64,000 nucleotides of DNA from Thermococcus sp. CX2 (GTDB lineage: Archaea > Methanobacteriota_B > Thermococci > Thermococcales > Thermococcaceae), in NCBI RefSeq assembly GCF_012027555.1, contig NZ_SNUQ01000002.1, forward strand, positions 434,001-498,000, in the 5' to 3' direction. The notes under the pieces were generated by a model. It saw only the letters and a program-made list of their open reading frames with translations. It was not told the DNA's origin and searched no databases. A program made the position numbers and the translations under genes. Positions 13,953-29,416 of this stretch are shown here, in pieces; the first letter of the stretch is position 1, and the number at the start of each line of letters is the position of its first letter.

Positions 13953-14924
13953 TCATTCCACCCTAAAGGTTAAGCCCCTCTCCCTAGCTTTCTTCTCCAC
14001 CTGTAACCTGAACTGGCAGGCCTTGCATATCTCGCCCGTCGTCGGCTGGCCACATATCTTGCAGCGGTTAAGCTCGCTCGTCTTCTTCGTGTAGGTCTTC
14101 GCTATGAGCGGGAAGAGCTTGTCGTAGCTCCTGAGAATCTGGTACTTCGTTCCAGGATGCTTCTCCTCCATCTCGTTAAGCCAGTCCCTTATCTCGGCGC
14201 GGAAGGCTTCGACAGCGTAGGGGCACTCGCTCAAATCGACTTCAATCTCGTTCAGCACCGCGTAGAGTATTATCTCCTTCTCGGGAATCTCGCGGAGGGG
14301 CTTTATCCTTGGAACCAGCTCGGGGTGAATCTCCTCGTAGTAAGGCCCGGTCCTGCCCAAGCGGGCAATGTCTCCCCTCAATATGTTCATTATGAACATC
14401 TGAACCTCATCGTCGAGGTTGTGGCCTACAGCCAGCTTATCGGCCTCCACATCTTTGGCCGCGTAGTTGAGGAGCCATCTTCTCCAGACGCCGCAGTAGG
14501 AGCAGGCTCCGACCCTTTCACCCCTCTCAAAGCTCCCCATGATTTGAACCGTCTCGTCGAGGGTGAAGCCTATGTACTCCTTGAAGGAATAGATTCTATG
14601 CTCTATTCCGAGCTTCTTGGCGTTTCTCTTGGCTATCTCCACGCTCGGTGGACGGTAGCCGGCTATTCCCTCGTCTATCGTTACCGCCACCAGCTCGAAG
14701 GGGAACTTTTTCTGGAGCTTAGCTAAGAGATGGAGCAGAACGACGCTGTCCTTCCCGCCGCTCACACCAACGGCTATCCTCTCACCCTTTTCTATGAGCC
14801 TGTACTTCTTAACGGTCTCCTTGAACTTCTTCTCCACCATCTCGTTGAAGTGTTTCCTACAGTAGTATCTCCCGGTGTAGCGTGCATGATAGACCGCCTC
14901 GCGGTTGCACTTGGAGCACTTCAT
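13953..14924 (-). CDS. TtuA/Ncs6-family tRNA 2-thiolation protein
   Basis: A 323-residue PP-loop ATPase that activates a tRNA uridine for 2-thiolation. The N-terminal zinc site uses Cys3, Cys6, Cys22 and His25. The PP-loop SGGKDS is at 55-60. CSYC near 142-145 and the Cys in SECPYA near 235 are the candidate iron-sulfur ligands. A C-terminal zinc finger, CKIC...CKAC, ends the protein. A paralog lies at 39845. Thermococcales carry two such proteins, and which one thiolates position 54 and which 34 cannot be told from sequence. A TATA-like CTTTTTAAACGG sits near 14953-14965. Confidence 0.9.
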   Translation of the reverse strand: MKCSKCNREAVYHARYTGRYYCRKHFNEMVEKKFKETVKKYRLIEKGERIAVGVSGGKDSVVLLHLLAKLQKKFPFELVAVTIDEGIAGYRPPSVEIAKRNAKKLGIEHRIYSFKEYIGFTLDETVQIMGSFERGERVGACSYCGVWRRWLLNYAAKDVEADKLAVGHNLDDEVQMFIMNILRGDIARLGRTGPYYEEIHPELVPRIKPLREIPEKEIILYAVLNEIEVDLSECPYAVEAFRAEIRDWLNEMEEKHPGTKYQILRSYDKLFPLIAKTYTKKTSELNRCKICGQPTTGEICKACQFRLQVEKKARERGLTFRVE

Positions 14925-14998
14925 GTCCTCACCGGTGGAGCAAATGTAATACCGTTTAAAAAGATTAGTTCACGACGGGGTCATGAAGTTTTGAAGTT

Positions 14999-15076
14999 GG
15001 TCTGGTATTTCATTTTCTAACCTCCCTTCAGCCCCGAAGGTTATTGACGGCTGTCAAAGTTTGGGCTGTCCAGACT
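14999..15076. other. Structured intergenic segment, possible RNA or terminator
   Basis: Three nested or adjacent inverted repeats fill the 200-base gap between two minus-strand genes. The outer arms are GTCTGG (15000-15005) and CCAGAC (15070-15075). Inside lie AACC...GGTT (15019-15042, with inner TTC/GAA) and a five-base hairpin TTGAC-GGCT-GTCAA (15044-15057). The arrangement is cloverleaf-like on either strand, but there is no tRNA consensus and no C/D or kink-turn motif. It may be the 3' end of the protease transcript. Confidence is low. Confidence 0.25.
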
Positions 15077-15125
15077 TTTGTGGGGAGAGAAAAGATAATA
15101 TTGGGGGCGCGTGAGGTTAAACTGA

Positions 15126-16265
15126 TCACCCAACAAGGCTCCTCAAAGCCGGCCACAGGTTCAAGGCCAGCAGGAACAGCCCTACCCCGATTGTGAAATA
15201 CCTTACGGGTTTAGCAACGTTCTCCGGCAGGTATGCATTAACTATATCGTCGAGCATTCTGCCGCCGTCGAGGGGGATCAATGGGAAGAGGTTCATCAAA
15301 CCTATTCCGAGGTTGAGAACGTATATCCAGTAGAACGTGAAGAACAGCGGAAAGATTATGTTGTTGTGTCCTACCTTTGAGACGTAGTATGGGGCTGGGT
15401 AGATTCCGATGTATCCCTTCTCTGGGTTCTCTGGATGCGCTCCGAGCTTCAGCTGGACGTTCATCTCCTCCCCGTCCCTCAGTATCGTCAGCGTTACGAC
15501 TTGGCCGGGCTTGGTGGTGTTCATGAAGCTGATGAACTTCTCCATGTCCTTTATCTGCTGGCCGTCCATCGCGATTATTACGTCCCCTTGGTGGAGGACG
15601 CCGTAGGCCGGGCCGTCATCTAGAACCCCTGTCACGAGTATTCCAGAGGACTGGAGAACTGGCGTTATGGCGAAGTTGATTATGAGAACCGCTATCAGCG
15701 CCGTCACTATGTTGGCGAGCGAACCGGCGCCGTAGACCCTCAGTCTCGAACGTAAGGGAGCTTTCTTAAGGGCTTCTTCGTCGGGCTCAACGAAGGCACC
15801 GGGGATTACTGCAAGAAGGACTAGGCCGACCGACTTGAGGGGCAATCCGTCGGCTCTCGCAACTATGCCATGGCTCAGCTCGTGGACGACCATAACAACT
15901 ACAAGGGCTATCAGGCCATATGAGAGAGGGATTGTGATGCCTGGTATCACAAGCTGGACTCCGGCCTGCTCGCCTCCGTTCTGTATCGTATTCATTGCGG
16001 TCCTTAGAAGGGCATAGAAGACGTAAGCCATGCCAAGGAATCCGAGAACTATACCAACGTCTCCATAAATCCTCCAGAAGCGCTTCCACCTATGGGCGAG
16101 ATTGTCGATGAGGCCCAGCAGCTTTTTTGTCCGCCACATTGCAATAAAAAGATCAACTGCTAGGCCCTCTTCATGCTCTTCGTCGTATTTTCTTCCGAAG
16201 AGGGCGTAGAGCACGGCCCAAAATGCTAGGATGCCAATGATTATCATGATGAGCGTGCTGTTCAT
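15126..16265 (-). CDS. Site-2-type membrane metalloprotease (M50) with PDZ domain
   Basis: A 379-residue intramembrane zinc protease. HELSH at residues 128-132 in a hydrophobic helix supplies two zinc ligands and the catalytic Glu. The third ligand is the Asp in LIPLDGGRM near 340. Between them is a PDZ domain with DGPAYGVLHQGDVIIAMDGQ (about 215-270). The ATG at 16265 is chosen over GTG 16274 because AGGTGA is spaced five bases before it. Site-2 proteases cleave membrane-bound regulators or leftover signal peptides; the substrate is unknown. It has its own promoter near 16297-16305. Confidence 0.93.
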   Translation of the reverse strand: MNSTLIMIIIGILAFWAVLYALFGRKYDEEHEEGLAVDLFIAMWRTKKLLGLIDNLAHRWKRFWRIYGDVGIVLGFLGMAYVFYALLRTAMNTIQNGGEQAGVQLVIPGITIPLSYGLIALVVVMVVHELSHGIVARADGLPLKSVGLVLLAVIPGAFVEPDEEALKKAPLRSRLRVYGAGSLANIVTALIAVLIINFAITPVLQSSGILVTGVLDDGPAYGVLHQGDVIIAMDGQQIKDMEKFISFMNTTKPGQVVTLTILRDGEEMNVQLKLGAHPENPEKGYIGIYPAPYYVSKVGHNNIIFPLFFTFYWIYVLNLGIGLMNLFPLIPLDGGRMLDDIVNAYLPENVAKPVRYFTIGVGLFLLALNLWPALRSLVG

Positions 16266-16316
16266 TTGAGTCACCTAATAAAGCGTTTTTGAGCTGAGTT
16301 TAAAAAGTAATCGCAC

Positions 16317-17201
16317 TCACAGTCTGCCCAGGAACTTCAGGATGTATATCTTTGTTCTCACGTCGAAAATAGAGCCGAGGACATCTTGGAGGTTGCCTCT
16401 CATTGTGGGGTTGAGCTTGAAGGCCCGGAGTACATCAGTTCCACCCGTTCTGTCACCGCTGAACAGCTTTAGAATGCCTATCTGGAGAAGGTGATAACTC
16501 AAAACTTGAGGGTCATGCCTTATGTCCCCATGCGCCTCTATCATCCTGTACCTGCCGGCCAGATATCTGGAGAAAGAGAACTGTCCAGAATGGATTGAGT
16601 AGTTCACCAGGGGGCTGTCTATTGCCTCGAAAAGACATATCCGCGACATCCTGAGCCACATATCCCAGTCCTCGCACGTAACGAAGTTTTCCCTAAAGAG
16701 CCCCGCCCTTTTGAAGCACTCCCTTCTCACCATAATCGTCGATGTCCCCGTTATATTGTCCTTCAGCAGGTGGCGGTAAACGTTGCCCCTGGCCTTTGGC
16801 CTTTTGGTTCCAAGGATTTTGTTTCTCTCGAGATAGTAGTAGTTGAAGGCAGTGTATATGAGGCCGTATGCGATGGGTAGGCTCTTAAAAAGCTCTACCT
16901 GAAGTTCGAGCTTCCCTGGGAGCCACTGGTCGTCGTCATCCAGGAAAGCTATGTACTCTCCCCGGGCTTTCTTAACACCGAGGTTCCTCGCGTCGGCTAT
17001 TCCCTTCCCTCTCTGCGGGATGTAGCGAAGCCTTCCGTCCCCGTACGAGCGCACGAGTTCCCTCGTTGAATCACTTCGCGCACCGTCTATTACGAGAACC
17101 TCGAAGTCGTCGAATTCTTGGCTTAAAACGCTTTCAACGGCCCTCGTTAGGAGCTCGTTTCGGTTGTATGTGGGAATAACGACGGAAACGGCCGGCCTCA
17201 C
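16317..17201 (-). CDS. Family 2 glycosyltransferase
   Basis: A 294-residue GT-A fold enzyme. The nucleotide-sugar site is SVVIPTYNRNELLTRAVESV, and the metal-binding DXD-type motif is AFLDDDDQWLPGK near residue 92. No membrane helix is obvious, so it acts on the cytoplasmic face. It starts at GTG inside a GTGA overlap with the preceding sulfatase-like gene and is the last gene of the 21279-16317 run. Donor and acceptor sugars are unknown. Confidence 0.92.
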   Translation of the reverse strand: MRPAVSVVIPTYNRNELLTRAVESVLSQEFDDFEVLVIDGARSDSTRELVRSYGDGRLRYIPQRGKGIADARNLGVKKARGEYIAFLDDDDQWLPGKLELQVELFKSLPIAYGLIYTAFNYYYLERNKILGTKRPKARGNVYRHLLKDNITGTSTIMVRRECFKRAGLFRENFVTCEDWDMWLRMSRICLFEAIDSPLVNYSIHSGQFSFSRYLAGRYRMIEAHGDIRHDPQVLSYHLLQIGILKLFSGDRTGGTDVLRAFKLNPTMRGNLQDVLGSIFDVRTKIYILKFLGRL

Positions 17202-18478
17202 TTGGCCACCCCCTTGCCTGCGAAGAGGCTTAGATGTTTGACTATGAGCTTTTTGGCCAGGGTCTTGAATTCATCCTCTTTCTCAGCTTTTATCTCTTCA
17301 AAGCGCCAGTCCTCAACGTTGAAGACTGCCGTGCCGTCCCTGTGGTAGAGCTTCAGCCTGTACTTCTCAAGCTCTTGGACGAGCTCCTTTTTATCCTCCG
17401 CCAGGTTTGGATACGGATAGTGAGTGCCAAAGCTCTCCGCCATGGCGTACTCAGAAGTAAGGCTGAATTCCTCGCCCCGAATGGTGCTTAAAATTAGGGG
17501 CTTTATCCTTGCGAGGCTGATGTATCCGTTTTCTCCCTCGCGAGGCTCTCCATCGGGCCATCTGATGAGGAGCGGGACCCTGAGGAGCTCGTCATAGAGG
17601 AAAACGCCGTGCCCGAGTTTTTCCCCGTATTCCCCGAGCAGCTGACCGTGGTCGCTGGTCACTATGGTTATGGAGTTCTCGAGTACCCCCTTCTCCTGAA
17701 GGATGTTGAGCATCTCCACGAGTCTCTTTTCAAGGTATTTGACCTGTTCTGGATACCCTTTCCTCCACTTCTCCACCAGCTCGGGCTCTTCTCCGAGGAG
17801 TCTGTTGACCACCGGAGCGTCCGTGAATCCTTCAAAAAGGGAATATGGCTCGTGGACTTCCATCAGGTTGATGAAGATGTAGGATGGAGCCTCAAAGTTG
17901 AGTTCCCTGAGGAGTTCGTTCGTAACTTTTGCGCCCTTGTCCTTTGGCCACCCTTCACCATACCTGCTTAGAATTCTCCAGAGGACTTTGAAAGGCAGGA
18001 CGAACTTCTTCTCTTTCATCAAGGCTTTGACAAGCTCCAGCCCATTTTTGGGCTGATACTTTTTGAGCACCCTGTTGAGCTCCTCTCTGTCCCGGTCCTC
18101 GATGAGGGGCTTTAGCGTGTCGTGGAATTCGGAAAAGCCCTTTATCCCGAAGTCTGGCCCGATAAAGAAGTTTGCAGTGAAGAGGTAGGTTGTATATCCG
18201 AGGGAAGCTAAAACCTCGTGCAGATACGTCCCGTCTTCCCTGAACCTCACGTCCGGCACTTTTCTCTTTTTGCCCTCGTGCACGCCGTGATAGAGGGGGT
18301 AGAGGCCAGTGAACATCGATGCATGACTCGGGATAGTCCATGGAGACGGGACTACGGCGTTTTCATAGCTCGTAAAGCCGAAATTCTCCACTAACATTCG
18401 CTCTATATCTTTGCTGTAGTCTTTTCTGAGGGTATCGAGGACTATGAGAATTACGTTCGGCCTATCCACGGACACCAC
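17198..18478 (-). CDS. Sulfatase-like alkaline-phosphatase-superfamily protein, Thr nucleophile
   Basis: A 426-residue protein of the sulfatase/phosphodiesterase branch of the alkaline phosphatase superfamily. Metal motifs are VLDTLRKD (Asp15) and TIVTSDHGQLLGEYG. The position equivalent to the sulfatase Cys/Ser (C/S-X-P-X-R) reads T-I-P-S-H, with Thr48, so a formylglycine-dependent sulfatase is unlikely. Thr nucleophiles occur in phosphodiesterases and phosphotransferases of the superfamily. No signal peptide is visible. It overlaps both neighbouring glycosyltransferase genes. Several GTG codons could start it. A role in cleaving or moving a phosphodiester or lipid-linked group during glycan assembly is inference. 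Confidence 0.85.
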   Translation of the reverse strand: MVSVDRPNVILIVLDTLRKDYSKDIERMLVENFGFTSYENAVVPSPWTIPSHASMFTGLYPLYHGVHEGKKRKVPDVRFREDGTYLHEVLASLGYTTYLFTANFFIGPDFGIKGFSEFHDTLKPLIEDRDREELNRVLKKYQPKNGLELVKALMKEKKFVLPFKVLWRILSRYGEGWPKDKGAKVTNELLRELNFEAPSYIFINLMEVHEPYSLFEGFTDAPVVNRLLGEEPELVEKWRKGYPEQVKYLEKRLVEMLNILQEKGVLENSITIVTSDHGQLLGEYGEKLGHGVFLYDELLRVPLLIRWPDGEPREGENGYISLARIKPLILSTIRGEEFSLTSEYAMAESFGTHYPYPNLAEDKKELVQELEKYRLKLYHRDGTAVFNVEDWRFEEIKAEKEDEFKTLAKKLIVKHLSLFAGKGVAK

Positions 18479-19412
18479 TCTCCTTAACTGGAACGGTTCT
18501 CGCCGCGGCTTTTATCCTTTTCAGCTTCTCCACGTTGCTCCGGAACGAGAGGTCGCGTCTTATCATCTCCCTGAGGTCTCCGTTCTCAATTCTCATCTCC
18601 CGGGCTTTAAACGCTTTTAAGTACCCCGCAATGAGGCCGTAGGTTTTGACTGGGTTGTCCAGCATGAGGAACGCTGCCCTTGCGAGTATCGAAGTGAAGG
18701 CCGCTCCGAGCTTGTAGTTCGACCACCCGAGCATCTCATAACCCCTCAAAAAGCCGAACCTGCCCTCTGTTTCCCTGAGCTGAACTGCTATGGCGTCCAC
18801 GATCTGCCCAGTCTCCCATCCAAGGAACCTAGCAAGGTAATGGGATACCGTATCTGGACTTGGGCCTTCTCGGTATCCCCCGACCTCTCTGAAGCACTCC
18901 CTCCTGAATAGCCTCGGGCTTCCTTTTGGTCTCTTGGGATCGGTGCCCTCCCATACCAAGCGGCCGTTTCTGATGTAGTATCCTCCCCCGCTCGCTATTC
19001 CAAGTCTGTTGTTTTTGTGGAACGCGTCAATTAGCTCCTCAAAAAACCTTCTCTCGAGGATGAAGTCCGCGTCGAGAACACCTATGTATCCGAAGACCAA
19101 ACTCCGCTCGAGCGCTATTTCGAGGGCCCTTTTAAAGCCCCGCCTCACGACATCGGAATAGCGGTATTTGAGGTCGTAGCCGGTGACCTCGTCCCTGAGG
19201 TGGAGGACTTCAATCCAGTCGAACTCTCTTGAGAGCTCTTCCGCTATCTCTCCCGTCCTGTCTGTACTGTTGTCATCCACAATGAGCCACAGCTTCGGCT
19301 TAATGCTTTGGTTGATGACGCTCTTGGCTAACAGAGGCAGATTTTTTTCCTCGTTTTTTGCGGGAGTTACGATAATGTAGCCCTTTGTTCGGGAACTTCT
19401 TGGCTTTCTCAC
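18462..19412 (-). CDS. Family 2 glycosyltransferase
   Basis: A 316-residue GT-A enzyme. The donor site is IIVTPAKNEEKNLPLLAKSV with LWLIVDDNSTDRTGE, and the DXD-like motif is GVLDADFILERRFFEELI. A hydrophobic stretch near 235-260 may contact the membrane. It starts at GTG in a four-base overlap with the phosphatase-superfamily gene upstream and runs 17 bases into the next gene, so translation is coupled. Sugar specificity is unknown. Confidence 0.9.
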   Translation of the reverse strand: MRKPRSSRTKGYIIVTPAKNEEKNLPLLAKSVINQSIKPKLWLIVDDNSTDRTGEIAEELSREFDWIEVLHLRDEVTGYDLKYRYSDVVRRGFKRALEIALERSLVFGYIGVLDADFILERRFFEELIDAFHKNNRLGIASGGGYYIRNGRLVWEGTDPKRPKGSPRLFRRECFREVGGYREGPSPDTVSHYLARFLGWETGQIVDAIAVQLRETEGRFGFLRGYEMLGWSNYKLGAAFTSILARAAFLMLDNPVKTYGLIAGYLKAFKAREMRIENGDLREMIRRDLSFRSNVEKLKRIKAAARTVPVKESGVRG

Positions 19413-20275
19413 TTCCTCCCCTCCGCCTTCTCAACGACCAGTTTAAACAAATCTTGGGGCCTCTCTATAAGCTCCCCCGTGTTGCTGCTGAAAAAACCAT
19501 GGTCGGAGTGGTCACCCCCACGTGGATCGCCAGGAATGGGCTCCATGCCGTGGTCGGAGATTATGTAGAGCACGTCGCCTTCGTCCAGCTTTTCCGAAAC
19601 CCTCTTGACAAGCCTGTTCACGTCGAGATACAGGTTCATCAGCTTTAGCTTTTTCCTGATGTAGAAGTGTGAAATCTCGTCGAGGAAGGGGGTGTACCAG
19701 AAGATAAGCTCGTAGTCTCCGTTAAGTGCTTCGAAGAGGGCTTTTCTGTCCTGCTCGTAAGTCCTCATCGCGTATTCCACGAGGGGCTTTAGGTTGCCCT
19801 TAACGGCTTCCGCCATAGCTGCCTTTACCTCTGGGTTTGAGACGTTTCTCCCATAGGATGGGACGCCGTTGGTCCAGGTTTTGTCGAAGTAGTCGAAGAT
19901 TGTTTTGTACTTCTTCGTTCTGAGGAGGTAATCGTAGGTGTGTTCAAATGGGTTGGGAGCTATCCTGTTGCCGATTATCTTTCTTACTACCCTGGGCAAG
20001 ATTTTAGCTCCAAATTTAACGTAAAATGGCTTTTTAATGTCCTTTGCTATGTTGGTTTCTTGTGCCAAGAACTTCTGCCGTTTTACGAAGGGCTCTTCTA
20101 TCTCGGGAACTTTTCGGCCAGTGAGCATTGCGGCCCATATTGGTGGGGTTACTATGACCTTGAAGTCTGAGAGGTCGGTCTTTGTGTATGCCTTCTGTTT
20201 AAGATGCTTAAGATTCCACTCTTCAATGAGGTTGTATTCGAGTCCGTCTATCCCGAGTATGATTATCTTTCCCAT
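19409..20275 (-). CDS. Phosphodiesterase/nucleotide-pyrophosphatase-like protein
   Basis: A 288-residue alkaline-phosphatase-superfamily protein, short for the family. Asp10 is in IILGIDGLEYN. The predicted nucleophile is Thr43 in VTPPIWAAMLTGR, and ISDHGMEPIPGDPRGGDHSDHG supplies the C-terminal metal ligands. It has no signal peptide, so it probably acts in the cytoplasm. It sits between two glycosyltransferases with a two-base gap and a four-base overlap. It could hydrolyse a nucleotide sugar, a pyrophosphate or a lipid-linked intermediate; sequence does not decide. Confidence 0.85.
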   Translation of the reverse strand: MGKIIILGIDGLEYNLIEEWNLKHLKQKAYTKTDLSDFKVIVTPPIWAAMLTGRKVPEIEEPFVKRQKFLAQETNIAKDIKKPFYVKFGAKILPRVVRKIIGNRIAPNPFEHTYDYLLRTKKYKTIFDYFDKTWTNGVPSYGRNVSNPEVKAAMAEAVKGNLKPLVEYAMRTYEQDRKALFEALNGDYELIFWYTPFLDEISHFYIRKKLKLMNLYLDVNRLVKRVSEKLDEGDVLYIISDHGMEPIPGDPRGGDHSDHGFFSSNTGELIERPQDLFKLVVEKAEGRK

Positions 20276-20277
20276 CG

Positions 20278-21279
20278 TCAGCTCCCCCTGTTCATCCAGA
20301 AGTTTATGTCTCCCTTCTTAATCCTGTTGCGGTTGGCTAGGGCTAGCCACATTGCCTCAAGCATGTAAACAATTTTGAGAGCTTTTTCCTTTTTAAAGCC
20401 GGAAGTTACGAACAGAATGGAATGGAGCATGAGGTCGCCGATTCTACCGAGTATGTAGGAGGTTTTGTTCCTTGGGTTTTGCTCGAAGAGCTTGTAGAAA
20501 AGGTAGAGGTGGTATACCTGCTTCATCGTTTCAAACTGCTTGGAGGGAAGCCTACCAGCTGGGGCCTCTTGGTGTATCAGCCTTGCATGTGGGGTTTGAT
20601 AGAGAGAATTGGGAAAAATCTTGTGAACCCGATATGAGAAGTCCTTGTCCTCTCCGATTGCGTACCGCTTGAGACGCTCGTCGAACTCCATGTGTTCAAA
20701 AATTTCCTTTCTGTAGGACATGTTCGTTCCGCTAAAGCTTTCTCTATTTATTACCTTCGTGACCTTGTAGGGGAGAATTTCAAAGAATGAAGGGAGCTGT
20801 TTGTGAAGGTCTACCTCGTAGTAACCCCTCTGCAGGAGCCACCAGAGGAACTTGAGGAATTTAAACCTGATTAGGGGATTGTGCATGTTGATTCTATTGG
20901 TTATGAATCCTTGAACCCCCATAGCAGTTGGATACGTTTCATAAACTTCAACGAGCTTTTTCAGGTAGTCGTCTTCAAGTACAACGTCATCATCGAGGAA
21001 CAGCACTATATCTCCCTTTGAGGACTTTACTCCTATGTTCCTTGCGTGGGGTAAACTCGCTCCCGGGACGCTAATATGCTTTACGACTATTCCCTTGTTT
21101 TTCATTTTTTTGAAGATGCCTTCAAACTCATGCCTAACCCTTTCCCACGAGCCATCGAAGCTACCATTAATGATGATAACCTCTATTGGGGGGAAGGTCT
21201 GGGAGATTATAGACTCGAGGCACTCCCTAAACTCCCTGGGACGTTTGTAGAGCGTTGAGATAACAATTGATACTAGCAT
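20278..21279 (-). CDS. Family 2 glycosyltransferase, first gene of the glycan run
   Basis: A 333-residue GT-A enzyme starting MLVSIVISTLYKRP. The DXD-type motif is VLFLDDDVVLEDDYLKKLVE, and the acceptor-side HARLIHQEAPAGR is near residue 245. A further upstream ATG at 21312 would fall in the promoter: the TATA element lies at 21311-21322, so transcription should begin near 21290. ATG 21279 also has GTGAT before it. The gene is moderately AT-rich. It is divergent from the sulfotransferase gene. Confidence 0.9.
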   Translation of the reverse strand: MLVSIVISTLYKRPREFRECLESIISQTFPPIEVIIINGSFDGSWERVRHEFEGIFKKMKNKGIVVKHISVPGASLPHARNIGVKSSKGDIVLFLDDDVVLEDDYLKKLVEVYETYPTAMGVQGFITNRINMHNPLIRFKFLKFLWWLLQRGYYEVDLHKQLPSFFEILPYKVTKVINRESFSGTNMSYRKEIFEHMEFDERLKRYAIGEDKDFSYRVHKIFPNSLYQTPHARLIHQEAPAGRLPSKQFETMKQVYHLYLFYKLFEQNPRNKTSYILGRIGDLMLHSILFVTSGFKKEKALKIVYMLEAMWLALANRNRIKKGDINFWMNRGS

Positions 21280-21400
21280 GGGTATCACTATCAAAAACAA
21301 AACTCTAGACAATATAAAAAGGTAGCTAAATGAAGATGTCGCAAACTATTTAATGGCCTTTTTCAACCACTTGTTGATTGCTGTTGGGGGGAGAAAGTCG

Positions 21401-22387
21401 ATGAACTTGTTCTCATTTCCAATCTCCAGAACTAACTACGCCATAGATTTAATCAGCGCACGTATGCACGATTTCAAAATCATGGAGACAATAGTCATAT
21501 CCGGAACACCTCGCTCGGGCTCCACATGGCTCATGGAGATTCTTGAGTCCCTGCCAGACTATAAGTCTGTCTTTGAGCCATTTCATCCAAACTGGTATCC
21601 CGAGTTCAGAAAACTCGGCATCCACTACGATCCCTACATCCCAACTCCTGAAGACTATCCAAAGCTCCGGGAGTACCTTGGGCGTGTTTTCACTGGAAAG
21701 GCCTATGGGATGTTTCCCTACAAGCACTATCTTGCACCTGGTAGAGTCCTGAAAAGGCTCACTGCAAATAAGCTCCTCGTGAAGTTCGTGAGGGCCAACA
21801 CGATGCTTCCTTGGGTTGCAAATACCTTCGATTTAAGGGCTGTTTATTTCATAATCCGTCATCCCTGTGCAACGATAGCCTCCCAGCTTGTGACTGGATA
21901 CTTCTCGCGGATAACCAAGGAACAGTTCTTGGACGAGGTTAGGAAGGTTTCTGAGCTGGCCGGGAGTGAGTGGCTAATGGACAAGCTTTCGGGCATTAGC
22001 TCCCAGATAGAACTCTTGGCGGCCATCTGGGCTTTTGAGAACTACATCCCGCTGGCCTCCGAGAGGCCGTATCCATGGTACACCGTGATATACGAGCGTC
22101 TGATCACCGACCCCGAAGAGGAGCTGGATTCTATTTTTGGCTATATCAATGAGGACGTGCCTGAAGGGGCAAGAAAAAGGCTCAGAACTCCGAGCAAGGT
22201 TACGCGCAAAACCTATGGAAAGACCTACATCGGCACTCCAAAACAGCTCATCAAGTGGCGTGAGAAGCTTACCGAACGGCAAATTGATGCAATTTTGGAG
22301 GTTGTCTCGTGGTTTGGGATGGACTTCTATGGTAATGAGCCCGAGCCCGACTACGATGCCCTTAAAAACTGGAGACCTCCCTTCTAG
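21401..22387 (+). CDS. Sulfotransferase-family protein
   Basis: A PAPS-dependent sulfotransferase of about 328 residues. The 5'-phosphosulfate loop is ISGTPRSGSTWLMEIL, and the 3'-phosphate motif is FIIRHPCATIASQLVTGYF with its Arg and Ser. ATG 21401 has GGGGGGA before it. The longer frame from 21353 would begin at the likely TATA box (ACTATTTAATGG, about 21342-21353). It probably moves sulfate from PAPS to a sugar of the glycan made by the flanking enzymes; the acceptor is unknown. It is the only gene of the region on the plus strand, ending in a four-base overlap with the convergent flippase gene. Confidence 0.88.
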   Translation: MNLFSFPISRTNYAIDLISARMHDFKIMETIVISGTPRSGSTWLMEILESLPDYKSVFEPFHPNWYPEFRKLGIHYDPYIPTPEDYPKLREYLGRVFTGKAYGMFPYKHYLAPGRVLKRLTANKLLVKFVRANTMLPWVANTFDLRAVYFIIRHPCATIASQLVTGYFSRITKEQFLDEVRKVSELAGSEWLMDKLSGISSQIELLAAIWAFENYIPLASERPYPWYTVIYERLITDPEEELDSIFGYINEDVPEGARKRLRTPSKVTRKTYGKTYIGTPKQLIKWREKLTERQIDAILEVVSWFGMDFYGNEPEPDYDALKNWRPPF

Positions 22388-23922
22388 AGGAACCTCTCCA
22401 ATATTCCCTTTATCCATCCCAGCCGAATTCCAAACTTTCTTTCTACCGCTGAGAGGAGTTCGACGTCCTCCAATTCCACGCTCCTCATGAGAAGTATCAG
22501 TGCAAAGTACACTGCAAAAAACGCCAGCAGGATTACTAGGGCCATCCAGATGTTTGCAACCGGCACCTTAACGAGTTTGAGAACCGCTACCATACCCAGG
22601 CCTATGAGCAGCTGCTTAACGTAGCTCTCGCTGAAGGGGTGTATCCCCGTCTTTTTGTAGAGCCACGTTGAGCGGAAGATGTTGGCGATTATGTACGAGA
22701 CCGCAGTGGCTGTGGCGGCGCCCTCTATTCCGTAGATGGGTATCAGGAGGACGTTTAGAAGGATGTTTGCGGTGGCTGCGAAGAGGTTTCCGACTAAGTT
22801 AGCCCTCGTCTCCCCGATTATAGTGAGGCTCATCCCGTTGAGCCCCAGGAAAGTATGAAACATGAAACCAATCGCTAGGATCTCAAGGGCTAGACTTGCT
22901 TCGGTGTATTTGGGGCCAAAGAGAGCGCCGATGGTAGCCTCGGGAAAAACTAATATCAAGACGAAGGCTGGGAATGTAAGGAGGAAAATCCATCTCGTTA
23001 TGACTTGATAGATTCTCTTCATCTCGAGTAGCTTTCCTTGAGCAAAAAAGGCCGTTGCTGTTGGGATGTATAAAAATCCGGCTGAGTTGAGGAATACTGG
23101 GAGCATTCTGGCTATTGGTGCGGCCGCGTTGTAGAGGCCCACCACCTCGGAGGTCATGTAGTAGCCGAGCATGAGGGTATCAGTCCAGCTCATAACGTAG
23201 TCCAAGATTCCCGTAAGCATCAGTGGAAGGCTAAAGGTGAGGAGCTCTATCCCAAGCTTGACGTTGAAGCGAAGTTCGGAGGGCAGCAGTTTAAGTTTGA
23301 ACAGATTGATAAATAAGGTAATGAACCCAAGGAACTGTGAGAGGACGTAAGCTACAAAAACGAATGTAAACCCAAAACCCCCCAGGATTCCGAGAATTGT
23401 AAATGCCAGAAACGTGACTGGGTACACAATGTTCTGGTAGTAGACCTTTTCCTTAACCCGGCCAAATCCCCGTGAGACGGTCACGAGGATCGCCATCATG
23501 ACCGCGAAGGGAAGCGAAGGGGCGAGTATCCTCAAAGTTGACGATAAGGACTCTTCCTGAAATATGGCTGCTATCCACCTGGAGCCGAGAGCAATGAGGA
23601 GGGCCGCGGTGATAGACGTGGCCGTGACCAGAAGGACGGCAGTTGAAACGAGCTCTGGAACCTTTTCAGGATCCCGTTTTCTGTAGAGAGAAATCTCCCT
23701 AGATAGGCCGCTTTGAAGACCCAAAAGTGCGAGGAGGACTCCGATGTTTAAAACAGTTAGGGCGAGAGAAAAGAGGCCGTACTGATCCGTTTCAAAATAT
23801 CTCGCTATTATTGCGCGCGTCAGGAAGCCCAAGATGGTCGCTATGATTGTGCCAGCAAATACGATCCCGGTGCCCTTCGCTATCTTGTGGAGTGCCTGGT
23901 TGACTTCATCCACGCCCGTCAC
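22384..23922 (-). CDS. Polysaccharide flippase (Wzx/MVF type)
   Basis: A 512-residue protein with about 14 membrane helices and the general pattern of the polysaccharide-exporter (MATE/MVF) superfamily, including ARYFETDQYGLFSLALTVLN near the start. Such proteins flip lipid-linked oligosaccharides across the membrane. Its start is a GTGA overlap with the TSUP gene; GTG 23913 is an alternative. It is the last gene of the sulfate-activation operon, which links sulfation to glycan export. Confidence 0.9.
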   Translation of the reverse strand: MTGVDEVNQALHKIAKGTGIVFAGTIIATILGFLTRAIIARYFETDQYGLFSLALTVLNIGVLLALLGLQSGLSREISLYRKRDPEKVPELVSTAVLLVTATSITAALLIALGSRWIAAIFQEESLSSTLRILAPSLPFAVMMAILVTVSRGFGRVKEKVYYQNIVYPVTFLAFTILGILGGFGFTFVFVAYVLSQFLGFITLFINLFKLKLLPSELRFNVKLGIELLTFSLPLMLTGILDYVMSWTDTLMLGYYMTSEVVGLYNAAAPIARMLPVFLNSAGFLYIPTATAFFAQGKLLEMKRIYQVITRWIFLLTFPAFVLILVFPEATIGALFGPKYTEASLALEILAIGFMFHTFLGLNGMSLTIIGETRANLVGNLFAATANILLNVLLIPIYGIEGAATATAVSYIIANIFRSTWLYKKTGIHPFSESYVKQLLIGLGMVAVLKLVKVPVANIWMALVILLAFFAVYFALILLMRSVELEDVELLSAVERKFGIRLGWIKGILERFL

Positions 23923-24662
23923 CTGTTGAGGAGGGTAATTATGCCTATCAGCAGAATTATGATGTTTATCGCCCTTTTAAGCTTCTCCTTCTCGGCCTTC
24001 ATGTTGACGTGGGTTCCCAGATAAACGCCCGGCAAAGTGCCCGCGATTAAAGCTACCGCAAGGTGGTAGTCAACGCTCCCAAGGAGGGCGTAGTTGAGGA
24101 AGCTGAAGGCCGAGAGGGCCAGGCCGTAGACTATCGTAACGCCGACAACTTCTTTCGGGTCGAGCTTCGCCACGTTCATCAGCGTGAAGCTCACTATGAC
24201 ACCAGCTCCGACGGAGGTGAACTGCACGGTAAGTCCAACGATGAAACCGAGGAGATAAACGTAAGCCCACCTCGGCTTTATCGGAACGTGGAGCTCACCC
24301 TTGAGAAGGCTCAGAACCGCGCTGATGACCAGAATAAGGCCGAGGAGGAGTGTGAGATAGTCGTTGAGGACCTCCTTGTTTATCTCCCTGAGTATTAGCC
24401 CACCAAGGGCTATCGCTGGCAGACTTCCTGCGAAAAGCCTCAGTGCTATGTCGTACCTTATCCTGCCCCTCCTGTGATGGAAGAACACTCCAAAAACCCT
24501 CGTTACAGTAGCGTAGAGCAGGTCGGTTCCGACTGCTATCAGTGGCTCGACGCCAAGGAAGATAAGGGAGGGGGTCATTAGGGCTCCTCCACCCACACCG
24601 GTAAGACCGACGAGGAACCCCACGAAGAAGCCAAGACCGATAAAAACCAATGCTTCTTCCAT
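23919..24662 (-). CDS. TSUP (TauE/SafE) anion transporter
   Basis: A 247-residue carrier with about eight helices. Two related halves each hold a glycine-rich motif: GFLVGLTGVGGGALMTPSLI near residue 15 and FTSVGAGVIVSF near 155. TSUP proteins move sulfite, sulfate or organosulfonates. Its place between APS kinase and the flippase suggests sulfate or sulfite transport; direction and substrate are inference. The ribosome binding site GGGAGG precedes the ATG. Confidence 0.9.
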   Translation of the reverse strand: MEEALVFIGLGFFVGFLVGLTGVGGGALMTPSLIFLGVEPLIAVGTDLLYATVTRVFGVFFHHRRGRIRYDIALRLFAGSLPAIALGGLILREINKEVLNDYLTLLLGLILVISAVLSLLKGELHVPIKPRWAYVYLLGFIVGLTVQFTSVGAGVIVSFTLMNVAKLDPKEVVGVTIVYGLALSAFSFLNYALLGSVDYHLAVALIAGTLPGVYLGTHVNMKAEKEKLKRAINIIILLIGIITLLNR

Positions 24663-24683
24663 TGGCCCCCTCCCCCGTTAGCG

Positions 24684-25226
24684 TTACGGTAGGTACCCAA
24701 GTTCCTTGGCCTTCTGAATGACGAGTTCAACTTCTTCCTCAGGCGTCATCTTTGAGCTGTCCACCTTTACCTCCGGGTTCTCGGGTTCTTCGTAAACGCC
24801 ATCGTAGCCGGTGAGACCCTTTATCTCGCCGCGCAGGGCTTTCGCATAGAGACCCTTCGGGTCGCGCTGGATCCTGACTTCCAGCGGGGCGTAGACGTAG
24901 ACCTCTATGAAGTTTCCTATTTCCTTCCTTGCGTGCTCTCTAACCGCTCTATACGGAGAAATCAGCGAGACTATCGCTATAACGCCGTTCCTACTGAGGA
25001 GCTTGGCCATGTGGATGACGATTCTGTTGTGCATTTCCCTTGCCTCTTTGCTGAAACCGAGCTCGGGATAGAGGGTCTTCCTTATCGTGTCGCCGTCGAG
25101 TATCTCCACGCGGTAGCCCATCTCCCTGAGCCTCTTGGCGAGCTTTACAGCTAAAGTCGTCTTTCCAGCCCCGCTCGGCCCTGTAAGCCATACCGTAAAG
25201 CCCTTCTCAAGGTTTCTCTGCTCCAT
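24684..25226 (-). CDS. cysC: Adenylylsulfate (APS) kinase
   Basis: A 180-residue kinase making PAPS from APS and ATP. The Walker A is GPSGAGKT at 16-23, with DGDTIRKTLYPELGFSKEAR after strand two. The motif FIEVYVYAPLEVRIQRDPKG marks the APS-binding side. ATG 25226 follows GGGTGGT with four bases of spacing and is preferred to GTG 25235. It has no APS reductase neighbour, so PAPS is probably used for sulfation, not reduction. It is in one operon with sat. Confidence 0.95.
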   Translation of the reverse strand: MEQRNLEKGFTVWLTGPSGAGKTTLAVKLAKRLREMGYRVEILDGDTIRKTLYPELGFSKEAREMHNRIVIHMAKLLSRNGVIAIVSLISPYRAVREHARKEIGNFIEVYVYAPLEVRIQRDPKGLYAKALRGEIKGLTGYDGVYEEPENPEVKVDSSKMTPEEEVELVIQKAKELGYLP

Positions 25227-25238
25227 GCTTACCACCCG

Positions 25239-26660
25239 TCAAACGATGCTCTTTCCGTTGAGCAACTTTCTCATACCGAAGAGCCTGAGCACGGTTGGGG
25301 CAAAGTCGTAGATTGTGAGCTGGGTCTGTTTCGACTCGTCCATGCCGGGGAGATACAGCGAGAACACGCCGTATTCTGCGTGAACTGCATCGTCTGGGCC
25401 CAAGTCGTTCTCGAGGAGGTATGGTGTCTCGTATCCAAGGGTTCCCGCTGCTCTCCAGTTCAAGTCATCCAGATAAACCATCATGTCCGGCTTGTCTCCC
25501 TTGGCGATGGGATAGATGTCCTCTGGATAGAACACCTTGGTGTCCCACTTCTCGCCGTTCGGGCCGCGTATGTTCTTTATAAGCTCTGCGACTTCGTCCC
25601 TAACCGGGTGGAACTTCTCGGGCGGGATTATTCCCTGGGGCTCCCTTCCCTTCACGTTGAGAAAGACCCTCGAGTAGTAGCCGCCCCAGGCCCAAGCGGT
25701 AGTTTTGCTCCAGTCAACCTTGAGCTCGTTGAATCTAACCTGTCTGCCGTCTTTCAGTATCTCAGGGTTCTTGATCTTGAGAAGGCCCTCCTCGATGAGC
25801 CACTGGTTTATGGCGAAAGCTCCCTTCATGGCCTTTATTCCGTGGTCTGAAACTATGAGTACAGCCGTCTCGTCGAGGTCGAGGAGCTTCAGGGTCTTGC
25901 CTATCTCTTTATCTAGGAGCTTATAGTAATCGGGGATGACGTTCCGGTAGGGGTTGTCGTCGCCAGGATAAAGGTGGTGATTCTCGTCGAAGTACTTCCA
26001 GAATGCATGGTGAACCCTGTCGAGGCCTATCTCCACGAACTGGAAGTAGTCCCAGTCCTTCTCCTCGATTAGGTACCTTATCACTTCGAACCTCTTCTCC
26101 GTCATCTCCCAGAGTTGCTCCTTGACTTCGTCGCGGTTCTCTTTTCTGAAGACAACGTCGAAGATGTATTCACCGACGAGGCTCTCAATCTCGCCCTTGA
26201 GCTCCTTTGGATAGGTGTAGTCCACGCTGGCATCGGGGGTTATGAAACACGACACGAGCCAGCCGTTTATCGGCTTCGGCGGGTAGCTCGGCGGAATTCC
26301 AACGAGAATCGATTTCTTGCCCTTCTCGGCTATGTAGTGCCACACAGCCTTCTCCTTCACCATAAGGCTGTGAGCAATCCAGATGTCGTTGTAGGTGCCC
26401 TTCTTCCTGTGCCTGAAGCCGTACAGACCCAGCTCTCCTGGCGTTTTTCCAGTCGCCATCACCATCCAGGCTGGAATGGTGATGGCTGGAATGGTGCTCT
26501 GCATCGGGCCATAGATTGACCTCTCGACGAGCCATTTTATGTTTGGTAGGTCATCCAAAAAGCGGCTGAACAAAAGCTCGGGTGGAGCGGAGTCGAGGCC
26601 AATGACGAAGACCTTCTTAACGTTCTCCAACCCGTTCTTAACCTTCTCATCAAAGCTCAT
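25239..26660 (-). CDS. Alkaline-phosphatase-superfamily phosphodiesterase
   Basis: A 473-residue protein related to nucleotide pyrophosphatases. Asp23 is in VIGLDSAPPE. The predicted nucleophile is Thr61 in IPAITIPAWMVMATGKTPGE, and VLIVSDHGIKAMKGAFAIN and DAVHAEYGVF complete the metal site. The ATG at 26660, with GGGTGATG before it, is chosen because a longer frame to 26783 would run back into the upstream DHH gene. It lies four bases after that gene and 12 bases before cysC. The substrate is unknown; a PAPS, APS or sulfated-intermediate phosphodiester is possible. Confidence 0.85.
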   Translation of the reverse strand: MSFDEKVKNGLENVKKVFVIGLDSAPPELLFSRFLDDLPNIKWLVERSIYGPMQSTIPAITIPAWMVMATGKTPGELGLYGFRHRKKGTYNDIWIAHSLMVKEKAVWHYIAEKGKKSILVGIPPSYPPKPINGWLVSCFITPDASVDYTYPKELKGEIESLVGEYIFDVVFRKENRDEVKEQLWEMTEKRFEVIRYLIEEKDWDYFQFVEIGLDRVHHAFWKYFDENHHLYPGDDNPYRNVIPDYYKLLDKEIGKTLKLLDLDETAVLIVSDHGIKAMKGAFAINQWLIEEGLLKIKNPEILKDGRQVRFNELKVDWSKTTAWAWGGYYSRVFLNVKGREPQGIIPPEKFHPVRDEVAELIKNIRGPNGEKWDTKVFYPEDIYPIAKGDKPDMMVYLDDLNWRAAGTLGYETPYLLENDLGPDDAVHAEYGVFSLYLPGMDESKQTQLTIYDFAPTVLRLFGMRKLLNGKSIV

Positions 26661-26664
26661 AACA

Positions 26665-27600
26665 TCACCCCAGGTACTCCTCAACAATCTTGAATGCCTC
26701 ATCAACCTTCTTCCTCTCACAGACGCATCCCAAAACTTCCCTCTTGCCGCCTGCGTTTGTTCCGAGGATGCGGAGCCTCTCAATGACTTCTGCCATGTTT
26801 ATCCTTTCGGCTTCCTCCTTCGAGACCCTGAAGTAGAGCTGAGCCTTCCCGTGGAAGTTCTTATTGACAACGACGGCACCTCTAAAGCCCATTTCCCAGA
26901 CGAGCCTCCTTGCAACCTTGGAGATTATGTTGAACGGACTCTCGAACTCGACTATCGCGAAGCCGTTCCTCTCAGTCACGCTTGAGAGGGCTTCCTCTAT
27001 TGTGCGTCTTATCTCATCCGCTCGCTTCACCCACGGCTCATATTCAAGGAGTTCTTTAGTTTCTTGACTGAGCAGAACTGCAACGGCATCTTCAACGGCT
27101 TCTCTGTCCACGGCTATGTAGTTCGAGTCCATTAGCTCGACGAGCCTTAAAGCCTCCTCCCTTGATAGGCCCTCCCTATCGAGGAGCTCATTAACGCGAG
27201 GAATCTCAAATGCCCTCTCGCCGATGTCACCGATTACTCCAAGGGCACTCCAAGTGTTCCAGAGGCCGAAGTACTCGGAAACCACCAGCGAGGCCGATGG
27301 ATAGTATTTACCGTCGAGCAAGGGGTTAATCTGCTTGACCTTCGGGTTCCTTATCCTCGGCTGCGTGTGATGGTCTATGAAGAGTGTTTCGACATTTACC
27401 CTCTCCACCTCACCCGGAACGTTGAAGTCCATCACGTAGAGCTTTTTAGCCTGCCCTATTGCCTTCCAGATCCTCTCATCGAAGCGGAACTCGCCTATTG
27501 GTGCTGTCATGTTTGTGAAGTCTTCTAAACAGAGTGCTCTGACGAGCAAAGCCGCTGAAGTTATCCCGTCCGTGTCCCAGTGGTGGACTATTAGGTGCAC
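26665..27600 (-). CDS. DHH phosphoesterase, candidate PAP phosphatase
   Basis: A 311-residue DHH/DHHA1 protein. Metal ligands are visible: Asp9 and Asp11 (HHWDTDG), Asp58 (VMDFN), and Asp76-His77-His78 (FIDHHTQP). A C-terminal glycine motif, NAGGKREVLG, is DHHA1-like. The family includes NrnA-type enzymes that cleave nano-RNA and adenosine 3',5'-bisphosphate. Placed between ATP sulfurylase and APS kinase, removal of the PAP left by sulfotransferase is the best guess. That is inference from context. It starts at GTG 27600. Confidence 0.85.
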   Translation of the reverse strand: MHLIVHHWDTDGITSAALLVRALCLEDFTNMTAPIGEFRFDERIWKAIGQAKKLYVMDFNVPGEVERVNVETLFIDHHTQPRIRNPKVKQINPLLDGKYYPSASLVVSEYFGLWNTWSALGVIGDIGERAFEIPRVNELLDREGLSREEALRLVELMDSNYIAVDREAVEDAVAVLLSQETKELLEYEPWVKRADEIRRTIEEALSSVTERNGFAIVEFESPFNIISKVARRLVWEMGFRGAVVVNKNFHGKAQLYFRVSKEEAERINMAEVIERLRILGTNAGGKREVLGCVCERKKVDEAFKIVEEYLG

Positions 27601-27626
27601 CTAAACCACCCCGCAAAAATAAAAAG

Positions 27627-28766
27627 TCACTCGACGAAGGGCTTCTCAAAGCTCCTTATGACCTCGTAGACCTCTGGCCTCATCATGTATTCTGGCGGCT
27701 GCTCGCCGGCCATTATCATCTTCCTGAGCTTTGTGCCGCTTATCCTGACGTGGAACTCCTCCGGGTGCGGGCATATCTTGGCGTTAACCATTCCGCCGCA
27801 CTTCCTGCAGTAGAAGGCCTCCCTGATGAACATCGGTGTTATGCCGAGGTCGGGGAAGTTGTCGAACATGTCCCAGGCCTCGTAGGGCCCGTAGTAGTCG
27901 CCGACACCCGCGTGGTCTCTGCCGACGATGAAGTGCGTCGCCCCGAAGTTCTTCCTCATTATAGCATGGTGCACTGCTTCCCTCGGTCCGGCGTAGCGCA
28001 TCTCGTAGCGCACCGTCGCCAAAGTCGCTGCATCTTTTGGATAGTAGTGCTCGAAGAGTGTCTCGTAGGCCTTTATGATGACCTCGTCCTTATAATCGCC
28101 CTTCTTTTTCTTTCCGAGGACTGGGTTTATGAAGAGGCCGTCGACGAAGGTGAGTGCCGCCTTCTGGACGTATTCATGGCCGAGGTGTGGGACGTTTCTC
28201 GTCTGGAACGCAACGATGGTCTTCCATCCGCGCTCCTTGAAGAGGACCCTCGTCTCGACGGGCCTCAGAGTATACTTGGCAAAGGGATTCGGAACCTCGT
28301 TGAGGAGCTCAATCTCGCCGCCGACGAGGTATTTGCCCATGGAATAGACCTTAGCAACGCCCGGGTGAGCGCTGTCAGTCGTCTTGAATACCTTCTTCGC
28401 GAACTCTTCCTTATCGTAGGTGTAGATCTCCTCAACGTGCATCCTCGCTATGGGTAAATCGCCGTAGTAGAGGAGAACTGCATCTCCCTCGTCAAAGGTC
28501 CTCTCATTGATATCGAGCACTATGGGGATGGTCCAGGGAGTGTCGTCACTCAATCTCATATGGTCGAGAACGCTCTGGAAGTCATCGCTCGTGAGGAACC
28601 CCTTGAGGGGGGAGTAGACGCCGTGGGCGATATTCTCCAGATCTATGGCCCTGCCGTGGTCGATTTTTATGGCGGGATACTCCTTCTGCTCACTCAGAAT
28701 CCTTTCCCTCGTCCTGTCGGCAACGAGTCTCCTGACTAACCTGCCCCCGTGGGGCTTTGAGACCAT
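27627..28766 (-). CDS. sat: Sulfate adenylyltransferase (ATP sulfurylase)
   Basis: A 379-residue monofunctional ATP sulfurylase forming APS from sulfate and ATP. The active-site motifs are FQTRNVPHLGHE (187-198) and GRDHAGVGDYYG (282-293). A zinc site typical of prokaryotic enzymes uses Cys320, Cys323, Cys332 and His334. The ribosome binding site GAGGTGAT stands before the ATG. It lies 26 bases after the RHH regulator gene, which makes it the first enzyme of the operon. No dissimilatory sulfate reduction genes are in the window. Confidence 0.96.
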   Translation of the reverse strand: MVSKPHGGRLVRRLVADRTRERILSEQKEYPAIKIDHGRAIDLENIAHGVYSPLKGFLTSDDFQSVLDHMRLSDDTPWTIPIVLDINERTFDEGDAVLLYYGDLPIARMHVEEIYTYDKEEFAKKVFKTTDSAHPGVAKVYSMGKYLVGGEIELLNEVPNPFAKYTLRPVETRVLFKERGWKTIVAFQTRNVPHLGHEYVQKAALTFVDGLFINPVLGKKKKGDYKDEVIIKAYETLFEHYYPKDAATLATVRYEMRYAGPREAVHHAIMRKNFGATHFIVGRDHAGVGDYYGPYEAWDMFDNFPDLGITPMFIREAFYCRKCGGMVNAKICPHPEEFHVRISGTKLRKMIMAGEQPPEYMMRPEVYEVIRSFEKPFVE

Positions 28767-28792
28767 GCTATCACCTCAAAAAGTTTTGAAAA

Positions 28793-29020
28793 TCAGTCGA
28801 GGTAGCCAAGGGCCCTGAGGCGCTCCTTGACCTTCTCCTCTTCCTCTTCGGTGAAGACTTCCTCTTTCTCTTCCTCTTCGAGGCTCGCCAGAACCTCGCG
28901 GAGGACGTAGGTAACGTAGTCTGAGACGGAAGTGAATCCGGTGCCCTCTATCCTCTTCTTGATCTTGTCGTAGAGGGGCTTTGGTATGGAAACGGTTGTG
29001 TACTTCTTTTCGTCAGCCAT
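28793..29020 (-). CDS. Ribbon-helix-helix regulator
   Basis: A 75-residue CopG/Arc-type protein. The DNA-binding strand is KKYTTVSIPKPLYDKIKKRI, followed by FTSVSDYVTYVLREVLASL and a very acidic C-terminal tail. ATG 29020 is preferred to GTG 29029, because GGAGGTG overlaps the GTG and is well spaced for the ATG. It is first in the sulfate-activation operon and faces a set of 10-base-spaced repeats at 29038-29076, so it probably represses its own operon. No toxin partner is adjacent. Confidence 0.88.
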   Translation of the reverse strand: MADEKKYTTVSIPKPLYDKIKKRIEGTGFTSVSDYVTYVLREVLASLEEEEKEEVFTEEEEEKVKERLRALGYLD

Positions 29021-29037
29021 CCGATACACCTCCAGTC

Positions 29038-29076
29038 TTTAATGATATTTAATGACATTTAATTAAATTTCATTAA
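29038..29076. promoter_or_regulatory. Phased-repeat operator and promoter of the sulfate-activation operon
   Basis: TTTAATGA occurs at 29038-29045 and 29048-29055, TTTAATTA at 29058-29065, and the inverse TCATTAA at 29070-29076. The direct copies start exactly 10 bases apart, one helical turn. Just upstream for the minus strand, GAAAGTTTTATAC (about 29079-29091) is a good BRE/TATA, placing the start of transcription near 29055, inside the repeats. Ribbon-helix-helix proteins often bind such tandem sites, and the next gene encodes one. Repression is inferred. Confidence 0.65.
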
Positions 29077-29136
29077 GGCGTATAAAACTTTCGGTGAGGG
29101 AGGGGTATCTTTAAAACCCCCCGGACGTATGTTATG

Positions 29137-29196
29137 CTGCGATGATGAATGATGGGCGAACCGAGTGGTGAGGAAGGAAAGGTGATCGCTGAGCAT
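29137..29196 (+). ncRNA. Candidate C/D box sRNA (first of two in tandem)
   Basis: Box C ATGATGA is at 29142-29148. After a 12-base guide comes a D' variant CCGA (29161-29164), three bases, C' GTGAGGA (29168-29174), a 14-base guide and box D CTGA (29189-29192). ATGC before and GCAT after could form a terminal stem. TATA-like TATCTTTAAAACC (29106-29118) sits about 25 bases before the expected 5' end, and a T-run follows the 3' end. The D' box is imperfect and the targets are unknown. Confidence 0.65.
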
Positions 29197-29227
29197 ACCT
29201 TTTTAAGGCCCATCCTTCCACTTTTTC

Positions 29228-29401: not shown

Positions 29402-29416
29402 AAAATAGGTGATACG

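Follow-up and report, generated by a model that had tools for sequence, protein, structure and literature searches.

In Thermococcus onnurineus NA1, the protein TON_1705 is reportedly an inorganic pyrophosphatase, a description that is said, in the papers citing it, to go back to Lee et al. in the Journal of Bacteriology in 2009. Here we examine its putative counterpart, AlkP3, one of three proteins of the alkaline phosphatase (AlkP) superfamily encoded in a window of 64,000 nucleotides, the whole stretch of DNA that was analysed, from Thermococcus sp. CX2 (assembly GCF_012027555.1, contig NZ_SNUQ01000002.1, positions 434,001 to 498,000). The T. onnurineus gene stands in a string given, in the available text of one paper, as TON_1704, an adenosine 5'-phosphosulfate (APS) kinase, TON_1705, the pyrophosphatase, TON_1706, a phosphatase of 3'-phosphoadenosine 5'-phosphate (PAP), and TON_1707, an ATP sulfurylase (PMC4463584). 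A table of another paper lists for TON_1705 a kcat of 2.1 and a Km of 18.8e-6 with inorganic pyrophosphate (PPi), and a kcat of 2.995e4 per second for Ton1914, a far more active enzyme of the same strain (PMC9653972). For Pyrococcus yayanosii and some other archaea, the accessible sections of a third paper show the cluster, covering Euryarchaeota and Crenarchaeota, report an assay of the DHH enzyme and speculate that PPi is degraded by a protein resembling nucleotide pyrophosphatases/phosphodiesterases (NPPs) (PMC8268124). The excerpted part of a methanogen study likewise describes an assayed DHH PAP phosphatase, found in 168 archaea, and a coupled assay of the ATP sulfurylase Sat in which the pyrophosphatase step was limiting (PMC10322725). 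Literature searches returned nothing relevant on COG3379 or on ATP sulfurylase and APS kinase combined with the AlkP superfamily, and the matches listed for Thermococcus N-glycans and sulfate included nothing on this locus.

Results

The window holds two modules side by side, one for sulfate activation (Sat, DHH, AlkP3, ApsK and TauE) and one glycan locus with glycosyltransferases, AlkP1, AlkP2, a sulfotransferase and a flippase. An earlier note on this DNA had treated the three AlkP proteins as a single glycan-related set at 17198-26660, a span that merges the two modules; AlkP3 belongs with sulfate activation. The genes of that module all lie on the minus strand and comprise Sat, which converts sulfate and ATP to APS and PPi (27627-28766; NCBIfam PRK04149 4.2e-165 and TIGR00339 1.4e-120, PF01747 2.7e-92), a DHH-family PAP phosphatase in the position of TON_1706 (26665-27600), which over residues 3-310 matches the PAP phosphatase of Methanothermococcus thermolithotrophicus (PDB 8a8k, E = 2e-122), AlkP3 itself (25239-26660), placed as in the gene order of TON_1704-1707, ApsK, the APS kinase that turns APS into 3'-phosphoadenosine 5'-phosphosulfate (PAPS) (24684-25235; TIGR00455 5.3e-68, PF01583 5.2e-59), and a TauE/SafE anion transporter (23919-24662; PF01925 4.3e-47).

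Of 73 family genomes, 50 have AlkP3 and the same 50 have the DHH protein, the joint presence or absence thus agreeing in 73 of 73. A strong ApsK is detected in 46 of the 73, never without AlkP3, and the AlkP3-positive genomes lacking it (G031, G039, G040 and G058) are fragmented assemblies of at least 140 contigs each, the missing ApsK being taken as a contig-end effect. All four genes, Sat, DHH, AlkP3 and ApsK, stand together in 28 Thermococcaceae loci, with Sat and DHH turned round in G066. G070 additionally carries a disrupted second copy of the operon (L079, 10521-11717), where a piece of DHH shares one frame with the C-terminal portion of AlkP3.

Beyond the family, a scan of genome contigs gave at least 549 relatives, and the best 80 by similarity, many of them from Aminicenantes, were followed up. 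These 80 loci span Archaeoglobi, Asgard lineages, Bathyarchaeota, Thermoplasmatota, Aminicenantes and other bacteria, and within the available flanking sequence Sat and/or ApsK accompany AlkP3 in 71, both in 46 and DHH in 22. Fifteen genomes without a neighbouring ApsK were searched: ApsK is encoded elsewhere in 13, and the remaining two returned only weak P-loop matches. Six Bathyarchaeal loci show Sat-AlkP3 with no ApsK nearby. The extension of the Sat-AlkP3-ApsK pairing to Asgard archaea and bacteria is an addition of this analysis. A purely glycan-linked role of AlkP3 was also considered, and was rejected in view of the gene context and the prior report on its counterpart.

Several of these loci deviate in their composition. 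Sugar-nucleotide genes, for example one for an NAD-dependent epimerase, often come after the string in Aminicenantes. In five Bathyarchaeota loci (L144, L151, L154, L156 and L160), two PhoU/TrkA-C proteins, assigned by Pfam for the L151 pair, come after Sat-AlkP3 in the place of ApsK. A two-gene insert, absent from the window, separates AlkP3 from ApsK in L080, L082, L085, L088, L098, L102, L110, L111 and L112; Pfam identifies the L085 pair as DUF4258 and DUF2283, the other pairs being assigned by their resemblance to it, and the layout is like that of toxin-antitoxin pairs.

AlkP3 carries the nucleophile motif Thr61-Ile-Pro, numbered from the ATG at 26660; a longer open reading frame from a TTG, reaching 26783, overlaps the next gene. 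A second T-x-P lies five residues before Thr61, and of the two only T61 is invariant (63 of 63) in an alignment of the window protein with 57 of the best 80 loci and five other loci, L159 with its in-frame stop being left out. Equally invariant are the metal ligands D23, D214, H218, D272, H273 and H427, the full D, T, D, H, D, H, H set of NPPs being present. Pfam places the protein, over cut-off, in PF01663 (Phosphodiest, 4.5e-45), and the comparison with nucleotide pyrophosphatases envisaged in the earlier note, run here for AlkP3, returned the NPP fold: for a confident AlphaFold 2 model (pLDDT 95.8, pTM 0.93), structure comparison, and Foldseek too, identified NPPs as the nearest solved folds, with Z 29.2 and a root-mean-square deviation of 3.3 over 342 aligned residues to XaNPP (2gsn), and Z of about 26-29 to the ecto-NPPs (ENPPs). 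A sequence search of the PDB with AlkP3 alone gave 0 matches, and NCBIfam matched no family to AlkP2, AlkP3 or the window sulfotransferase.

The AlkP3 clade has signatures of its own. An Asn about 21 residues past the Thr of NPPs, which we take to be N111 of XaNPP, is not present; in profile alignment the corresponding region of XaNPP and phosphonoacetate hydrolase falls on Gly81-Phe82-Arg83, conserved in 63, 62 and 63 of 63 sequences, respectively. Six arginines, R83, R172, R215, R331, R339 and R403, occur in 63 of 63 AlkP3 proteins as compared to at most 4 of 15 paralogs, and W317, W323, Y328, Y329 and W402 are invariant in the clade. The six arginines fit a ligand of strongly anionic character and do not discriminate between PPi and a nucleotide. 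PF01663 is found at four places in the genome of the strain, one of which lies outside the window (L032, contig C1 553697-554647, with a 384-residue frame), and PF00884 at one.

The AlkP3 gene also stands out by its descent. The window protein is 97% identical to that of G051 and 88-92% to those of five genomes from other genera, as opposed to 76% for G048, G046 and G027, whose Sat, DHH and ApsK proteins are 91-98% identical to those of the window. Congruently, the window and G051 group with other genera on starred branches of the AlkP3 tree, and with G048, G046 and G027 (starred) in the DHH tree. At the DNA level, identity between the window and G048 is about 98% late in DHH, 64-82% through AlkP3 and again 95% within ApsK. 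It looks as if, within the operon, the AlkP3 gene and no other was replaced by an allele of other genera.

In the glycan locus, AlkP1 and AlkP2 alternate strictly with three glycosyltransferases of family 2 (GT2), as the earlier note had observed, in a compact GT-AlkP1-GT-AlkP2-GT order that has three overlaps (4, 17 and 4 bases) and one 2-base gap. On the minus strand these are a GT2 (16317-17201; PF00535 2.4e-34), AlkP1 (17198-18478), a GT2 (18462-19412; PF00535 4.7e-17), AlkP2 (19409-20275) and a GT2 (20278-21312; PF00535 1.5e-18). A P-loop sulfotransferase follows on the plus strand (21353-22387; PF13469 5.9e-9 and PF00685 1.2e-5, both over cut-off), for which a PDB search gave two chance-level matches, and then, on the minus strand, a polysaccharide flippase of the Polysacc_synt/MatE type (22384-23922; PF01943 5.1e-28). 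No tandem repeats were found within 15000-29500. In many relatives the glycan genes have fixed flanks, which in the window lie at 13953-16274 and 29387-31418 (TtuA with an M50 peptidase; a decarboxylase-like gene with one for a cation efflux protein), and between these the gene content varies, resembling a surface-glycan island. Relatives also hold a second AlkP1-like protein, 38-41% identical and near the sulfotransferase and the flippase (L084 9081-10373, L088 10347-11573, L089 9554-10858), that the window is without.

AlkP1 is a sulfatase-family protein (PF00884, 6.9e-24, residues 7-331, 85.1 bits against a cut-off of 25), as are 16 of 16 relatives, with the motif Thr48-Ile-Pro. T48, P50 and H52 are invariant in the 16 aligned relatives, as are D15, D276 and H277 among the metal ligands plus H209 and H290. 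The shorter AlkP2 (PF01663, 6.7e-10, over cut-off) has Thr43-Pro-Pro and a complete set of metal ligands, D10, D199, H203, D241, H242 and H256, all invariant, like T43, in 14 of 14 aligned relatives; its predicted model is poor (mean pLDDT 62.7), and a PDB sequence search yielded four matches at chance level only. In profile-profile comparison with AlkP3, AlkP2 reaches 95.6% probability and AlkP1 93.9%.

The three threonines are thus borne out as nucleophile positions, each within an open reading frame where the earlier note had placed it. Formylglycine sulfatases carry C/S-x-P-x-R at the nucleophile. None of the three proteins has this signature: T48 of AlkP1 aligns with the sulfatase nucleophile, yet its T-I-P-S-H fails the pattern, and the cysteine counts are 0, 0 and 1 for AlkP1, AlkP2 and AlkP3, the single one being residue 138 of AlkP3, far from Thr61 in sequence. 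One sulfatase label for all three was therefore rejected on the nucleophile signature. The warning in the earlier note that such a label would mislead holds for the chemistry; for AlkP3, however, sulfate is the proper topic, and only genomes with the PAPS-making module were found to have AlkP1-like proteins. Phosphotransferase or phosphodiesterase, of which the note had named the former, is a possible role for AlkP1 and AlkP2. Hydropathy plots show no hydrophobic stretch in any of the three (19-residue maximum of 1.17 for AlkP1, no segment above 1.6), and AlkP1 and AlkP2, having no membrane segment, would accordingly be expected to act in the cytoplasm.

AlkP1-like proteins, counted with a protein query at E <=0.001 rather than by the PF00884 model (24 of the 33 at <=1e-30), occur in 33 of 50 AlkP3-positive and 0 of 23 AlkP3-negative genomes (Fisher 1.7e-8), and are therefore tied, directly or not, to PAPS production. 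Linkage alone is not enough for this pattern, since glycan genes and sulfate module lie at separate places in at least four genomes (G047, G035, G044 and G025). AlkP2 is present in 12 of 50 against 0 of 23 genomes; the window-type sulfotransferase likewise occurs in 12 AlkP3-positive genomes, 9 of which also have AlkP2. P-loop sulfotransferases, counted as the union of several searches (the G023 case being a fragment, and the PF13469 matches of G000 and G013 below cut-off), are seen in 17 of 43 AlkP3-positive versus 0 of 13 AlkP3-negative good genomes. The other 26 of the 43 show none; 17 of these have an AlkP1-like protein and 9 have neither. PAPS reductase (PF01507) was tried as a PAPS consumer and proved uninformative, matching 56 of 56 genomes with or without ApsK.

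Discussion

We consider it likely, though by no means settled, that Sat-DHH-AlkP3-ApsK-TauE makes and recycles PAPS with AlkP3 splitting PPi, and that the AlkP1/AlkP2 module builds a surface glycan. Sat would form APS and PPi, and AlkP3, by analogy to the PPi activity reported for TON_1705, would split the latter by nucleophilic attack of Thr61 at a two-metal site, pulling the unfavourable Sat step. ApsK would then turn APS into PAPS, and the DHH enzyme would clear the PAP left by sulfo transfer. The GT-AlkP1-GT-AlkP2-GT genes, together with the sulfotransferase and the flippase, would assemble the glycan, with AlkP1 and AlkP2 as cytoplasmic enzymes of the Thr type, a phosphotransferase and a phosphodiesterase, whose substrates would be the growing glycan or its activated precursors. 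AlkP1 and AlkP2 probably carry out phospho-transfer or phosphodiester chemistry in a sulfated-glycan locus, whose product is probably sulfated and possibly also phosphorylated. The exopolysaccharide of T. litoralis contains sulfate and phosphorus, according to the available part of a review (PMC4189415), a composition that would suit such a locus.

Four findings weigh against this reading. TON_1705 is slow, with the tabulated kcat of 2.1 against 2.995e4 per second for Ton1914, and PPi may for that reason not be its real substrate. The six invariant arginines and several Trp and Tyr residues of AlkP3 suggest room for a ligand beyond PPi. Seven Archaeoglobaceae loci have DHH-AlkP3-ApsK without Sat, awkward for a role in pulling Sat. 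Finally, the association of AlkP1 is weaker once kinship is considered: on a species tree from one protein of 56 genomes, with at least 8 changes of AlkP3 and 7 independent pairs, AlkP1-like proteins track AlkP3 in 4.9 of the 7 pairs on average and in 0 run opposite (median p 0.06), and the sulfotransferase tracks AlkP3 in 1.8 of 7.

The first three of these points are what could speak for AlkP3 as a nucleotide phosphodiesterase of the PAPS pathway, in which attack by Thr61 on the alpha phosphorus of either APS or PAPS would free sulfate, controlling or cleaning up these labile nucleotides, with the PPi activity incidental. The NPP fold, with nucleotide-cleaving ENPPs among the closest structures, the invariant arginines and aromatics, the retention with DHH and ApsK in the Archaeoglobaceae and the low reported kcat on PPi are all in line with such an activity. 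It would however work against the output of the operon that encodes it, the activity reported for TON_1705 is that of a pyrophosphatase with a micromolar Km, and AlkP3 adjoins Sat in the Bathyarchaeal loci with no ApsK nearby, and we regard this alternative as unlikely. Still less can be said for all three AlkP proteins acting on lipid-linked or nucleotide-sugar intermediates, as the earlier note had it. AlkP1 and AlkP2 do overlap or abut glycosyltransferase genes, but the association of AlkP3 with Sat, DHH and ApsK persists in genomes that have other glycan genes or carry them at another place. The pyrophosphatase suggested in that note agrees with the activity reported for TON_1705, yet the reported substrate is inorganic PPi instead of a lipid-linked or nucleotide-sugar intermediate, making this proposal highly improbable.

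A further alternative has AlkP1 as a Thr-type sulfotransferase or sulfatase of the glycan pathway, moving or removing sulfate. The sulfatase family assignment of its 16 relatives, its confinement to AlkP3-positive genomes and its presence in 17 of the 26 good genomes without a seen P-loop sulfotransferase are congruent with this; on the other hand, 9 of the 26 have neither protein, the tie to sulfation may be indirect, and we know of no Thr enzyme of the AlkP fold with sulfate as its main substrate. We deem it improbable. The specific version in which AlkP1-type proteins are the missing sulfation enzyme of Thermococcaceae, a cytoplasmic Thr placing or moving sulfo groups on the glycan, is a long shot, but if true it would explain both the restriction to PAPS-module genomes and the 26 of 43 good genomes without a seen P-loop sulfotransferase.

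The analysis corrects the grouping of the three genes, and shows an AlkP-fold partner accompanying sulfate activation well beyond the archaea in which the literature consulted describes it. A little-noticed type of pyrophosphatase thereby becomes easy to find. The survey also leaves a shortlist of PAPS-module genomes in which no P-loop sulfotransferase was seen and AlkP1 is a candidate PAPS user.

Comparison with known systems

AlkP1 resembles the S1 sulfatases (PF00884), which it matches over 7-331, and its profile matches solved sulfatases at up to 5.1e-15; it differs at the C/S-x-P-x-R motif, where a Thr takes the place of the modified Cys/Ser and a His that of the Arg. Weaker profile matches, 1.4e-5 to 4e-4, connect it to the membrane proteins LtaS, EptA (YjdB) and YejM. 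The nucleophile of LtaS and EptA is a Thr. Their type has a membrane anchor with an extracytoplasmic domain, unlike AlkP1, for which hydropathy predicts action in the cytoplasm.

AlkP3 shares with XaNPP (2gsn) and ENPP1-7 the fold and the metal-ligand pattern, the 2gsn alignment extending over 342 residues at 15% identity; it departs from XaNPP in the Gly-Phe-Arg that replaces the Asn region. PYCH_17550 of P. yayanosii, annotated as a type I phosphodiesterase/NPP, has the same neighbours including TauE, with a speculative PPi role in the accessible sections (PMC8268124); that paper shows the cluster for Euryarchaeota and Crenarchaeota, to which Asgard archaea and bacteria are added here. Closest is TON_1705, which, like AlkP3, lies between ApsK and the PAP phosphatase and near ATP sulfurylase, and whose reported substrate, in the literature available, is PPi. 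AlkP3 is equated with it by gene order; the window allele is of the other-genera type and shares no more than 73-77% identity with almost every same-genus copy in the comparison. By this analogy, AlkP3 is probably a TON_1705-type pyrophosphatase of sulfate activation, a role that is largely known already.

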